From a virus, in IMG/VR virus record IMGVR_UViG_3300033388_006324, positions 1-51,289 of that record: DNA of 51,289 bases. One strand, written 5' to 3'. This document shows positions 367 to 45,802 of this stretch, piece after piece. Under the pieces are notes generated by a model that did not search any database, was not told the origin of the DNA, and saw only the letters and a list, made by a program, of their open reading frames with translations. Positions within the stretch are counted from its first letter, which is position 1. Every line of letters starts with the position of its first letter. Both the position numbers and the translations under genes were made by a program.

Positions 367-686
367 ATTATTAACAAAAAAATATTTGTAAATTTATTTT
401 TGAAACTATCGTTGCAATAATCATTATTATCGCTGTGATAGTTAGTATAAGCGTATATGCGTTATCTAGTTTTCCACTCCAAAAAAGACAATATACGAAT
501 TATCAAAATGCCATTCGGTAAGTGGATATTGACTAATGGAGTTACTAGGATAATAGGAAGTAGAAAAATAATTAAAAAAATATACACGATTACAAAACTA
601 AAGAAAAAAAGGTTTAAATAAAGCCAAAAACAAAGCTAAGTGTTTTGTAATCACTAGAGTAAGCACAAAATAACAATAAAAAACAT

Positions 687-1195: not shown

Positions 1196-1250
1196 AAATT
1201 GGTAGTCTTGTGTTATGCCTTTACACCAATTTGGGCATAGCACTGGACTT
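1196..1250 (+). promoter_or_regulatory. Leader pseudoknot upstream of HNH gene
   Basis: Three complementary pairs lie in this 55-nt leader. AAATTGGT (1196-1203) pairs with ACCAATTT (1225-1232). GTGTTATGCC (1210-1219) pairs with GGCATAGCAC (1234-1243) through ten pairs including one G-U. AGTC (1204-1207) pairs with GACT (1246-1249). The first helix crosses the other two, so the leader can form a pseudoknot ending nine bases before the ATG at 1259. A role in translational control or in the element's mobility is inference. Confidence 0.45.
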
Positions 1251-29957: not shown

Positions 29958-29966
29958 TTTTTTAAC

Positions 29967-33488: not shown

Positions 33489-33522
33489 TCCCTGCAATAT
33501 TTAGAAATGACCGATAAAATGG
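33489..33522 (-). repeat. 34-bp dispersed repeat, copy 1
   Basis: This copy (plus-strand start TCCCTGCAATATTTAGAAAT, then GACCGATAAAATGG) lies 8 bp after the methyltransferase stop and 6 bp before the consensus -35. Other copies are at 42165, 42697 and 43208. Confidence 0.8.
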
Positions 33523-40899: not shown

Positions 40900-41340
40900 C
40901 TATTCTCCTTCTTCCTCTACCCAGCACTCAGGACAAATATGAGTTCCACCCTCCTTTACTTCTTGTGGTTCGTCTATGTAATCATACATCTTACCGCAGG
41001 CTTCACATTTTACTTTGTTTTTTAATAAATTTTCTCCGTAGTCATGCATTGTTTGCAGTGCTATTTCATTCAATTTTCTTCCAAATTTTTCATTATAAAA
41101 TAATCCTAACCCAGCAATATTCAAGTAGTAATCTTGCCAATGATAACCACTAGTTGGACAAATGAACCAATTCACGAATGTTCGCTGTTCACACATTGTT
41201 ACCATTTCTTCTTTGTGTTTGCCTCTTCTGTGAGGCATTGGATGGTCAGCAAGATTTTTTTTAGATTCTTCCAAGAAAATATCCAGTTTATTTTCTATCC
41301 ATTTAGGAAGTTCATCTATGTACTCTTCTTCTTTTTTCAT
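40900..41340 (-). CDS. Hypothetical protein with C-terminal zinc ribbon
   Basis: The 146-residue protein contains an N-terminal charged region (HPMPHRRGKHKEEM), a middle TSGYHWQDYYLNIAGLGLFYNEKFG, and a C-terminal zinc ribbon: CEACGKMYDYIDEPQEV then HICPECWVEEEGE (two CxxC knuckles). Zinc ribbons of this sort bind nucleic acid or RNA polymerase. It is the first gene after a strong promoter and has a long structured leader. Confidence 0.6.
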   Translation of the reverse strand: MKKEEEYIDELPKWIENKLDIFLEESKKNLADHPMPHRRGKHKEEMVTMCEQRTFVNWFICPTSGYHWQDYYLNIAGLGLFYNEKFGRKLNEIALQTMHDYGENLLKNKVKCEACGKMYDYIDEPQEVKEGGTHICPECWVEEEGE

Positions 41341-41351
41341 GCTTTTTTTAT

Positions 41352-41504
41352 TCTCTCGGTAGCGGAAGTAATCATACCGCCACCACCGAGAGAGATTACT
41401 TAATTATTATTGATAACCATATAATCGCTTTGCGAATTATTCAGTTATTAGTAGCTAAATTAGTAGATTGCCATTTATAGTTTTTTTGGCTTTCTTATTT
41501 AGCT
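41352..41504 (-). promoter_or_regulatory. Structured 5' leader of the zinc-ribbon gene
   Basis: Transcription from the promoter at 41511-41539 gives a leader of about 160 nt. It holds a TAGCTAAAT/ATTTAGCTA inverted repeat (41452-41460 and 41497-41505), a small CGC-AAA-GCG hairpin, and a strong two-part stem at 41352-41393 (TCTCTCGGT/ACCGAGAGA with inner GCGG/CCGC). The last ends 11 nt before the ATG at 41340 and could hide the initiation region. Confidence 0.5.
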
Positions 41505-41510
41505 AACTCC

Positions 41511-41539
41511 AGTATATACCCTTATTGCTTTTTTGTCAA
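41511..41539 (-). promoter_or_regulatory. Strong promoter for accessory genes
   Basis: On the minus strand TTGACA (41534-41539) and TATACT (41511-41516) are 17 bp apart. It should drive the accessory genes starting at 41340. Confidence 0.8.
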
Positions 41540-41767
41540 GGGTATAGTTTTAGTAAAAAAAATAATGTTTATGTTGAATCAATTCTATAAGTTTACAATT
41601 ATCTCCACCTAAAAAGCATACAAACATATAAACCTACTCAGGCTCTTAATTTCATCAACCCCGAGTAGTGCGTATAGAGGTTTTGTAGAGGCTTATAGGT
41701 GGTGAGAAATAATTATTTTTTAATTGCAAATAAAAGATATTTTTTTGATAATTTAATAAATTGAGAT

Positions 41768-41799
41768 AAAAAAAACTACCTCTCATCAACTGATGAAAG
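41768..41799 (-). terminator. Terminator-like hairpin ending the noncoding RNA
   Basis: On the minus strand CTTTCATC and GATGAGAG (41780-41799) form an 8-bp stem with an AGTT loop. A GTAG gap and eight Us (41768-41775) follow. The gap makes it imperfect but acceptable. Confidence 0.55.
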
Positions 41800-42113
41800 A
41801 AAAAGCTTGTGTAGTAAACAATTATTAGTCCTTATTGGTCAATGGTATCCTAGCACTGCTCAATGGACACCTTGTATAATCTTTTTACAGTGCGGTGGAG
41901 TTGGAATTTCTTTGAAACGAGTTTTGTATTCTTTTTTACAAGACAAATTCCCTATCACTCCGATAATGACTTTTGGGTATTTAAAACCCCCGCTGAGTTT
42001 TACCTCTTAAATTGCTTTCTTTGTAAATAGAACCAAAAAGCCCAACTTGTAATCGCAGTACAAATCAGGCTTTTTAGCCCTATCCACTGCGATTAGATAA
42101 GCTATTCAATTCT
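41768..42113 (-). ncRNA. Structured noncoding RNA, about 346 nt
   Basis: The 800-bp gap between 41403 and 42207 contains no credible gene, but it has a consensus promoter at one end and a terminator-like hairpin at the other. In between, on the minus strand, I find: a 10-bp perfect stem (42086-42095 with 42050-42059) enclosing GGCT/AGCC; AAAAAGCC/GGCTTTTT complementarity reaching 42035-42042; a three-part hairpin (41957-41961/41897-41901, 41945-41951/41903-41909, 41937-41941/41924-41928); and GGTGTCC/GGATACC (41865-41871/41844-41850) whose loop pairs with 41888-41893, a pseudoknot. I see no tmRNA, RNase P, group I intron or tRNA signature. Function unknown. Confidence 0.6.
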
Positions 42114-42119
42114 AAATCC

Positions 42120-42148
42120 ATTGTATCATGTTTAATTTTATTTGTCAA
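42120..42148 (-). promoter_or_regulatory. Promoter of the noncoding RNA
   Basis: TTGACA (42143-42148) and TACAAT (42120-42125) on the minus strand have a 17-bp spacer. It lies 16 bp downstream of copy 2 of the 34-bp repeat. There is no gene for about 780 bp downstream. Confidence 0.8.
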
Positions 42149-42164
42149 GTAACTATTTTAAAAG

Positions 42165-42198
42165 TCCCTGCAATAATTGAAAATGACCGATAAAATGG
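42165..42198 (-). repeat. 34-bp dispersed repeat, copy 2
   Basis: Plus-strand start TCCCTGCAATAATTGAAAAT, then GACCGATAAAATGG. It is 8 bp after the stop of the HNH gene at 42207. Confidence 0.8.
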
Positions 42199-42206
42199 TG
42201 CTATTC

Positions 42207-42665
42207 CTATCTCTTTTTATTTATTTTAATCCACTTACCATTTTCCTTACAATAATCTTTTTCATTATCGATTCTAATAAATTTATATCCTTCAGGCTTT
42301 TCTCCCATATCTTTATAAAAGTTTTCAAATCTATTCCAACGATTACAAATTTTTATTTTTTGTTTTTTATTTTTTTCATAATAATAATTGTTAGGGTTGT
42401 TGCATTTCTGAATAAAATTTTCCCAAACCTTATATTCTGGACTTTTAGACATAAAATGCGTTCTATGTGCATTTTTCATAGACTTATATAAACATCCACA
42501 AGATTTAGTTATTCCTCTAATAACGCTATTAACTCTAATTATTTTATTATTTCCGCAATCACATTTAAATAGCCAATATAAGTTGTTATGTTTATCTCTA
42601 TGATCAAATTTAATAGCTGTTAGCTGGTTATATTTATTTTCTTTTTTAATTATACTTTTTTTCAT
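42207..42665 (-). CDS. HNH endonuclease, shortened paralog
   Basis: The first 120 residues align clearly with the HNH protein at 1259-1891: IIKKENKYNQLTAIKFDHRDK, YWLFKCDCGN, TKSCGCLYK and NRFENFYKDMGEKPEG. The catalytic part is altered: DRIDNNGNYEPKNCRW has become FIRIDNEKDYCKENGKWIK, so the usual Asp-Arg-Ile-Asp and the final Asn-Cys-Arg-Trp are changed. The DNA-binding tail is absent (152 versus 210 residues). It may be a decayed or repurposed homing enzyme. It is flanked by two copies of the 34-bp repeat. Confidence 0.7.
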   Translation of the reverse strand: MKKSIIKKENKYNQLTAIKFDHRDKHNNLYWLFKCDCGNNKIIRVNSVIRGITKSCGCLYKSMKNAHRTHFMSKSPEYKVWENFIQKCNNPNNYYYEKNKKQKIKICNRWNRFENFYKDMGEKPEGYKFIRIDNEKDYCKENGKWIKINKKR

Positions 42666-42696: not shown

Positions 42697-42730
42697 TCCC
42701 TGCAATAATTGAAAACAACCGATAAAATGG
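42697..42730 (-). repeat. 34-bp dispersed repeat, copy 3
   Basis: Plus-strand start TCCCTGCAATAATTGAAAAC, then AACCGATAAAATGG. It is 9 bp after the stop of the gene at 42740 and 31 bp before the ATG of the HNH paralog. There is no consensus promoter next to this copy. Confidence 0.8.
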
Positions 42731-43207: not shown

Positions 43208-43239
43208 TCCCTGCAATAATTGAAAACAACCGATAAAAT
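43208..43239 (-). repeat. 34-bp dispersed repeat, copy 4 (32 bp)
   Basis: Identical to copy 3 for 32 bases, up to CCGATAAAAT, then diverging. No gene ends next to it. The region on its minus-strand 3' side (43082-43200) is a low-complexity A/G tract on the minus strand. Confidence 0.75.
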
Positions 43240-43615: not shown

Positions 43616-44029
43616 TTATTGTATGTTTGCTAACTCTTCTATTTCTTCAGAAGAAAGCAATTTTTTTAATTTTTTAACTTCTTTTTTAACTGCTTTATAG
43701 ATTTTAAGGGCTTTTATTGAATCGCTGGAATAGCCAAAAGCATCGGCGAAGTCCTGGAAAGTGTTAACCTCTGCATAAGGATCTAAGCAAGCTAGCACAT
43801 CGTAAGCAGTCGGTTTTTTTCCGGCGTCTTGATTAGCGATTGAGTCCCAAAAGTGAAAGACATAAGATTCATCAGTTTTACGATTGTATAGAATCACTGC
43901 ATAAGTTATCCCGTGGCTGCTGCCATTCTCTTCATCCCATAGTGGGGATGTTTGCGGAATAGCTTTTTTAATTTCAAGGGCTAGCTTGTTTTTAGCTAAA
44001 AAGTTGTTAGCTTTTTTTTGATAATTCAT
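43616..44029 (-). CDS. Conserved phage/plasmid protein of unknown function
   Basis: The 137-residue protein contains ITYAVILYNRKTDESYVFHFWDSI, PTAYDVLACLDPYAEVNTFQDFADAFGY and SSDSIKALKIYKAVKKEVKKL. I recognise this pattern (PTAYDVLACL...Y...F..F...FGY..DS..A..IY.AV) as a widespread family on phages and plasmids without a settled function. It is transcribed from the promoter at 45248-45276. Confidence 0.7.
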   Translation of the reverse strand: MNYQKKANNFLAKNKLALEIKKAIPQTSPLWDEENGSSHGITYAVILYNRKTDESYVFHFWDSIANQDAGKKPTAYDVLACLDPYAEVNTFQDFADAFGYSSDSIKALKIYKAVKKEVKKLKKLLSSEEIEELANIQ

Positions 44030-45247: not shown

Positions 45248-45276
45248 ATTATACTCTTATATAATTATTTTGTCAA
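45248..45276 (-). promoter_or_regulatory. Consensus early promoter, minus arm
   Basis: TTGACA (45271-45276) and TATAAT (45248-45253) on the minus strand are 17 bp apart, both perfect. It starts the minus arm. Confidence 0.85.
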
Positions 45277-45479
45277 GCGTTTGGGGTTTTTATTTAATTT
45301 TTTTGTATCTATTTTTTAAGCTGATAGATTCAGAAAAAAATAAAGCACGATTAAATTATCCCCTCCTTATTTTTTTTATTTTTCTATTTTTTTTTATTCT
45401 TTTTTTTTATTTTTTTATGGTTTTTTTTGTTGTTTTTTATGGTTTTTTATGGTTTTTCGGACATTAAATTGTGCTTTTT

Positions 45480-45537
45480 GGCTTGTTTAAGCCATTTTAA
45501 GCCTTTTTTTAACGTCGTACAATATACATTGTGCGAC
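45480..45537 (+). other. Hairpin/T-tract copy B and GTCGTACAAT dyad
   Basis: GGCTTGTTTAAGCC (45480-45493) is followed by a second AAGCC and seven Ts. GTCGTACAAT (45514-45523) then pairs with ATTGTGCGAC (45528-45537). Both motifs also occur at 43309-43384. The divergent gap 45118-45802 otherwise holds a T-rich tract (45360-45465) and the promoters. Confidence 0.5.
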
Positions 45538-45611
45538 ATTGTCCAGAAAATAGAGGGTAGGGGGTAGTTATAAATGGGTGCTTACTTTTATATAATTTCA
45601 CAATATTTAAA

Positions 45612-45771
45612 CTCTTTGTGCTACACTATATTTTTATTTTTTTATACTATCTCTTTGTGCTACTACACATTTTTATTATTATTATTTTTTAATCTTTAAT
45701 TTATACATATCCATTATTTTATTAACTATTTATACTATACTCTTGACAAATAATCTCAGTGTGCTACACTA
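45612..45771 (+). repeat. Three TGTGCTAC promoter-like repeats
   Basis: CTCTTTGTGCTAC occurs at 45612-45624 and 45651-45663. TGTGCTACACTA occurs at 45617-45628 and 45760-45771. The third copy contains the extended -10 of the promoter for the plus arm, so the others may be extra promoters or operator half-sites. Confidence 0.6.
45743..45770 (+). promoter_or_regulatory. Promoter of plus arm
   Basis: TTGACA (45743-45748), 16 bp, then TGCTACACT with an extended -10 (TG at 45762-45763, TACACT 45765-45770). It lies 33 bp before the ATG at 45803. Confidence 0.75.
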
Positions 45772-45802
45772 GTATTATAATCAATTAGTTTAATTTAACA
45801 TT

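Follow-up and report, generated by a model that had tools for sequence, protein, structure and literature searches.

Genomic setting of the locus

The stretch of DNA analyzed here (the window) is a virus record of 51,289 bases from an uncultured phage, and its G+C content is 29%. Recognised genes are those for an endolysin, a tape measure protein, TerL, portal, a DnaB-like helicase, an SbcC-like protein and an RNA ligase. A Shine-Dalgarno-like motif was found for 5 of 54 genes and is missing from the other 49. The closest RNA ligase from a named genome, with 48% identity, is that of a Candidatus Roizmanbacteria MAG, and a host in the Patescibacteria is therefore possible, although TerL relatives from that phylum are distant. 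RNA ligases 34–63% identical to that of the window (L022–L057, L083, L084) are scattered over otherwise unrelated viral contigs, and MAGs of Ca. Roizmanbacteria and Ca. Nitrosotalea have them as well. This scatter suggests that the gene has been moved by frequent transfer.

Searches with portal and TerL gave the relatives L005–L012, which are fragments stopping short of the region described below; a TerL search of genome contigs gave none. In one relative the TerL gene is split by an in-frame insert of ~360 aa that resembles an intein with a homing endonuclease (L009:3499–6249), and another carries about five iteron-like direct repeats of TTAGCGTATC (L012:780–915, plus strand). The window (45441–45772) and L005 (198–391) have an intergenic region in common, which contains GTCGTACAATATACATTGTGCGAC as an inverted repeat as well as repeats of the motif TGTGCTACA; one of these repeats serves as the −10 element of a rightward promoter. 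The region looks like a late-operon control region. Strong plus-strand hairpins (z −6.0) are also present at 281–400, inside a gene-poor stretch (290–1258).

The initial annotation had placed a gene-free interval at 41403–42207. We confirm the absence of a convincing gene, as reading frames in the interval are short, start with GTG or TTG, or lie on the wrong strand, and we correct the bounds to 41341–42206. Inside the interval, at about 42165–42195 on the minus strand, lies a 31-nt intergenic repeat, ATTTTATCGGTYRTTTYYAAWTATTGCAGGGA, with further minus-strand copies at 42697–42727, 43208–43238 and 33489–33519. Three of the four copies directly follow a stop codon, and two flank the HNH gene 42207–42665. 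An exact-pattern search for the repeat in viral contigs gave no match.

A predicted 346-nt RNA between a promoter and a terminator-like hairpin

Just downstream of the repeat, a sigma-70-type promoter is found on the minus strand (42148–42120, TTGACA-N17-TACAAT), with a TG before the −10 element and 11 of 12 consensus positions matched. Sites matching at least 11 of 12 positions number six in the whole genome, i.e., at 45276, 42148, 41539, 33482, 28074 and 24563, all on the minus strand, compared with 0–5 per strand in shuffles. From the promoter we infer a transcript start at 42113 and a transcript of ~346 nt (42113–41768, minus strand). It would end in an intrinsic-terminator-like hairpin (41800–41768) with a 9-bp stem (41800–41779), a 3-nt spacer and eight Us. 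Both bracketing elements had been proposed before and are present as described. A single rule yielded seven terminator-like candidates in the whole record, two of them inside the 346-nt RNA (42070–42040 and 41800–41779). The G+C content of the RNA is 35%, compared with 19–33% in other intergenic stretches.

The next gene (40900–41340) is preceded by a promoter TTGACA-N17-TATACT on the same strand (41539–41511). Each having its own near-consensus promoter, the RNA and this gene therefore seem to be separately promoted. A further long minus-strand hairpin lies past the terminator at 41710–41595 (z −4.4); a promoter of its own was not seen.

The folding signal is concentrated at the 5′ end

The 346-nt RNA folds at −95.6 kcal/mol (z −4.43), hence better than shuffled sequence, as the initial annotation had required. 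The excess is uneven, with most of the signal in the first ~90 nt (z −6.15, compared with −2.06 for the 3′ 256 nt). We also calculated z by shuffling for the 60 lowest-energy 120-nt segments of the 51-kb record. Three of the six segments with the best z fall in the interval and its edge (42001–42120, 41321–41440 and 41601–41720; z values here are −7.4, −7.25 and −5.3), and the fourth-ranked segment, 41281–41400, overlaps one of them. The computed fold of the 5′ 90 nt is far better on the minus strand (−35.2) than on the plus strand (−20.1), which argues for an RNA and against a DNA palindrome; a difference of this kind is what GU pairs in an RNA would lead one to expect.

Two predicted, mutually exclusive folds of the first 91 nucleotides

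Four minus-strand segments make up the 5′ domain. S1 (42113–42086, nt 1–28) contains the core UAAUCGCAGU (42095–42086, nt 19–28). S2 (42087–42059, nt 27–55) is the 5′ arm of a 29-bp rod (fold A), the apical loop of which is S3, ACUGCGAUUA (42059–42050, nt 55–64). S4 (42051–42023, nt 63–91) is the 3′ arm of this rod. S3 is the perfect complement of the S1 core, and in the alternative fold B S1 pairs with S3 and, through its outer part, with S4. The perfect 10-bp stem noted earlier is thus S1:S3, and the competing AAAAAGCC/GGCUUUUU pairing lies within the uninterrupted rod (42087–42023), which has 21 Watson-Crick and 8 GU pairs with zero mismatches. Shuffled sequences never gave a helix longer than 17 bp (0/200).

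We assessed the folds separately by shuffling either S1 alone or S2 alone, 5000 times each. Pairing of S1 with S3S4 (fold B) amounts to −26.1 kcal/mol (z −5.8) and that of S2 with S3S4 (fold A) to −32.4 kcal/mol (z −7.4), and no shuffle was as good in either case. The outer S1:S4 pairing alone was equalled by 21 of 5000 shuffles. The two folds are nearly isoenergetic (−34.9 for B, −37.1 for A). With nearest-neighbor energies, B is the minimum-energy fold of the growing chain at lengths 64–90 and A from ~92 on, and the predicted barrier between them is 22–30 kcal/mol. We conclude that the 5′ 91 nt are predicted to be a bistable domain with mutually exclusive folds, each beyond chance.

Fold A contains a terminator-like part (42070–42035), i.e., a 12-bp stem (42070–42040) followed by UUUUUGGUUCU, an interrupted U-tract. 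At the end of this tract (nt 79–80), B is predicted to be about 2.6–2.7 kcal/mol better than A, so that, unless a regulator intervened, the polymerase would by default read through. A kissing loop between the hairpin AGCUUAUC...GAUAGGGCU and the rod loop was considered and set aside, because the 10-bp S1:S3 helix of fold B accounts for the complementarity by nested pairing.

The 3′ domain

The remainder of the RNA forms a multibranched domain (42018–41812, minus strand) closed by AAGCAAUU/AAUUGUUU, with a z of −1.85 without the terminator. By itself it is just marginally above chance. The pseudoknot that had been noted at 41893–41844 is present with 7 + 7 bp (GCACUGU/GCAGUGC and GGUGUCC/GGAUACC) and was equalled by 3 of 400 shuffles (p about 0.01). 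Its segments follow the same S1-S2-S1′-S2′ order as the 5′ domain, with a longer linker. The 3′ domain could be an unstructured spacer carrying a chance pseudoknot.

Family and homolog searches

None of the 4227 models of Rfam 15 matched the RNA at gathering score; the best weak match was a eukaryotic miRNA model on the rod (26.3 bits, cut-off 100). ARAGORN found no tRNA or tmRNA in the window. The RNA thus bears no known signature in Rfam, tRNA and tmRNA searches, in agreement with the first reading of the sequence. The HNH neighbor had prompted us to consider group I intron, HEARO/omega-RNA and retron readings, for which Rfam gave no match; moreover, the HNH protein (152 aa, phrog_374) is not IscB-like in size, and no reverse transcriptase was found among the proteins searched.

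The viral, phage and genome collections searched yielded no homolog of the 346-nt RNA. Neither blastn and megablast of the phage collection nor an exact-pattern search of viral contigs with the pseudoknot core gave a match, and anchoring on the neighboring protein 40900–41340 or on the helicase found no relatives. The RNA ligase search gave 51 viral and 2 genome loci, with the RNA in none of the viral ones. Across 380 genomes from the phylum to which the Roizmanbacteria match belongs, two short matches were rejected, one lying within a coding frame (L088) and one judged by eye to be chance (L089). Homologs not being found, maintained pairing is seen just among sequence-unrelated copies of the layout.

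The initial annotation had proposed that this RNA could represent a new class. It is structured, has its own promoter and terminator-like end and falls outside the families tested; the demonstrable part of that proposal is narrower, namely the 5′ two-state domain.

The layout recurs in the phage and in a relative

We scanned for rods whose apical loop complements a segment abutting the 5′ foot of the rod, with strict criteria of a rod of at least 14 bp, complementarity of at least 8 nt and a gap of −3 to 8. The S1-S2-S1′-S2′ layout gave four strict matches in the window, three of them before protein genes, and recurs once in L005. Sixty shuffled strands contained one strict match, i.e., about 0.03 would be expected in the window compared with the four found, and this significance is partly post hoc, since the scan was designed after three copies (42023, 41352 and L005) were known. 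It was the scan itself that brought up the copies at ~1204 (1196–1249) and at 29964. When the 100 nt upstream of 57 gene starts were scored, three reached at least 22, with a shuffle mean of 0.01. In unrelated phages, 1.5 Mb of strand gave no strict match. A looser scan of 53 unrelated phage or genome loci sharing only the RNA ligase gave 9 matches, compared with 11 in shuffles, and none of the 9 reached the strict criteria.

The second copy (41401–41352, minus strand) has S1 AAGTAATC and a 14-bp rod with GATTACTT in the loop, and ends 11 nt before the ATG at 41340. In the third (30014–29964, minus strand), S1 is GCTTGGAAG and the rod carries CTTCCAAGC in its loop and ends in TTTTTT, 6 nt before an ATG at ~29957. 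The fourth (1196–1249, plus strand) combines S1 AAATTGGT with a 16-bp rod and ACCAATTT in the loop, and the ATG at 1259 follows 9 nt further on. The copy in the relative (L005:2641–2703) lies 18 nt before an ATG, behind a promoter TTGACA-N17-TATAAT. A weaker candidate for a fifth copy in the window (44088–44050, minus strand) has a 10-bp rod and 7-nt complementarity and lies 20 nt upstream of the ATG at 44029.

The five copies are without common sequence in S1/S3 or S2/S4. Pairing is kept though the letters differ; the evidence for compensation is thus drawn from copies and not from orthologs. For all five, folding of the growing chain is predicted to form S1:S3 first and the rod afterwards. 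The rods at 42.0 kb, at 29.97 kb and in L005 are each followed by a U-rich tract. As the other two are without it, termination cannot be the function common to all copies.

L005 and L006 share a 7.9-kb stretch at 97.5% identity, which begins exactly where the U-tract of the L005 rod ends; upstream of that point no similarity between them was detectable. The breakpoint (L005:2708/L006:1122) is exactly at the 3′ end of the element, and upstream of it L006 has an HNH-like reading frame. The L005 element lies at a mosaic boundary, or was swapped there. L005 also contains another, unrelated gene-free stretch with multiple hairpins (420–665, plus strand), with an 11-bp closing stem AATAAATAGCT/AGCTATTTATT and about eight hairpins (z −2.8), behind a promoter TTGACA-N17-TACATT; it has no Rfam match.

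Discussion

We tentatively read the locus as an early transcription unit of the phage that makes a ~346-nt non-coding RNA headed by a co-transcriptional two-state switch, with attenuation as its most likely role, and we rate this reading at somewhat short of an even chance. As the RNA emerges, S1 (nt 19–28) would pair with S3 (nt 55–64) and extend into fold B. Once S4 is complete, from nt ~92 on, the 29-bp rod S2:S4 of fold A would become the better fold and S1 would be freed. In fold B the polymerase would pass and the long RNA would be made; if fold A formed early, its terminator-like hairpin would end transcription at nt ~80. We propose attenuation because fold A contains this hairpin, and a scheme in which read-through goes with fold B would suit the reported copy best. 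There is no gene between the switch and the second terminator-like site; translation therefore cannot be the output of this copy. The missing gene also speaks against attenuation, as do the interrupted U-tract of fold A, the predicted advantage of B at nt 79–80 and the two copies that have no U-tract. The function common to all copies may be folding timing, RNA stability or polymerase pausing. It is conceivable, if rather doubtful, that the copies together represent a new class of small co-transcriptional switch, i.e., S1-S2-S1′-S2′ leaders, each with its own sequence, that time or gate coding and non-coding early RNAs.

Alternatively, the 346 nt could be the product themselves, as a trans-acting structured phage RNA (sRNA or ornate RNA) with the rod serving to stabilise it or to bind a protein and the active part lying in the pseudoknotted 3′ domain. 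In favor of this, the RNA has its own promoter and terminator-like end, no ORF and a G+C content above that of other intergenic stretches, and its pseudoknot beats 397 of 400 shuffles. We nevertheless consider this unlikely: the z of the 3′ domain is only −1.85 to −2.06, the collections searched gave no homolog, and the best-supported part is common to mRNA leaders.

A translational leader, in which the rod lies within the A/T-rich leader usual in this phage (TAATTAAATT...AAAACAATG) and brings it beside the start codon, and S1:S3 hides this leader, would have to explain why no start codon follows the reported copy, which would either have lost its gene or drive an RNA. It would equally have to accommodate the U-rich, terminator-like end of three of the five rods and, in the smaller copies, a rod stability far above that of S1:S3. 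We therefore hold it to be quite improbable, even though three of the four window copies end 6–11 nt before an ATG, S1 overlaps the end of the A/T-rich leader and most genes of this phage are without a Shine-Dalgarno-like motif.

A 29-bp double-stranded rod is of sufficient length for RNase III. Together with the hairpins at 41.6 and 41.37 kb, it forms a set of three strong same-strand hairpins ~300–400 nt apart, which might serve as processing sites in a longer early transcript or stabilise it as 5′ protective hairpins. The complementarity of S1 to the loop in five copies and the separate promoter at 41539 are both left unexplained by this reading, to which we give little credence. A processive antitermination element like HK022 put would stay with the polymerase and let it pass later terminators. 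The position would suit such an element, with an early promoter directly ahead of it and terminator-like sites further on, but the next gene is served by a promoter of its own (41539) and the folds are alternatives instead of two fixed hairpins, which makes this very improbable. Least credible is that the structure is a palindrome acting in the DNA (at an origin, packaging or regulatory site) or arose by chance through replication slippage, for although the interval is A/T-rich with many inverted repeats, the fold is strand-asymmetric, its 8 GU pairs come with no mismatch, one inverted duplication would not yield interleaved complementarity and none of 5000 shuffles was as good.

If the two-state switch is real, one phage would repeatedly reuse an RNA switch defined by architecture only, without sequence conservation. 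Such switches would escape Rfam-type searches and covariation pipelines that need alignable homologs, whereas a simple geometric scan does detect them. The copy before a non-coding RNA separates transcription or RNA stability from translation, so that the question is directly testable.

Comparison with known systems

GOLLD, ROOL and OLE are large structured non-coding RNAs with pseudoknots and kissing loops, GOLLD and ROOL being found in phages (PMC12286853). Unlike these, the 346-nt RNA is much smaller, has no Rfam match and no tRNA island nearby, and its structure beyond the 5′ domain is marginally above chance. The putL site of phage HK022 follows PL directly, and each of the two put RNAs is ~70 nt long and has two stem-loops (PMC9378689). 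The RNA described here is likewise structured and right behind an early phage promoter; in contrast to put, one segment picks between two partners, and there are four sequence-unrelated copies.

The switch shares with attenuators and riboswitch expression platforms two mutually exclusive folds, each beyond chance, in a leader behind a promoter. The order of the folds would likewise be set by transcription, with an antiterminator-like form early and a terminator-like hairpin afterwards. It differs in its interleaved S1:S3 and S2:S4 pairings, with the complement of S1 in the loop of the rod, in the absence of a known aptamer or leader peptide, and in two copies being without a U-tract. No controlled gene lies downstream of the reported copy, while other copies do precede genes; we therefore say that this RNA would work like an attenuator and do not class it as one.

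H-type pseudoknots are found in 5′ leaders, for example that of T4 gene 32. Their complementary segments have the identical linear order, but here the stems would act as alternatives and not together, because a linker of 0–4 nt between S1 and a rod of 14–29 bp should geometrically prevent them from coexisting. The S1-S2-S1′-S2′ design, as modeled here, suggests a kind of RNA switch that had not been recorded before. What is new is the recurrence of one layout, with unrelated sequences, before three protein genes of the phage and in its relative L005.
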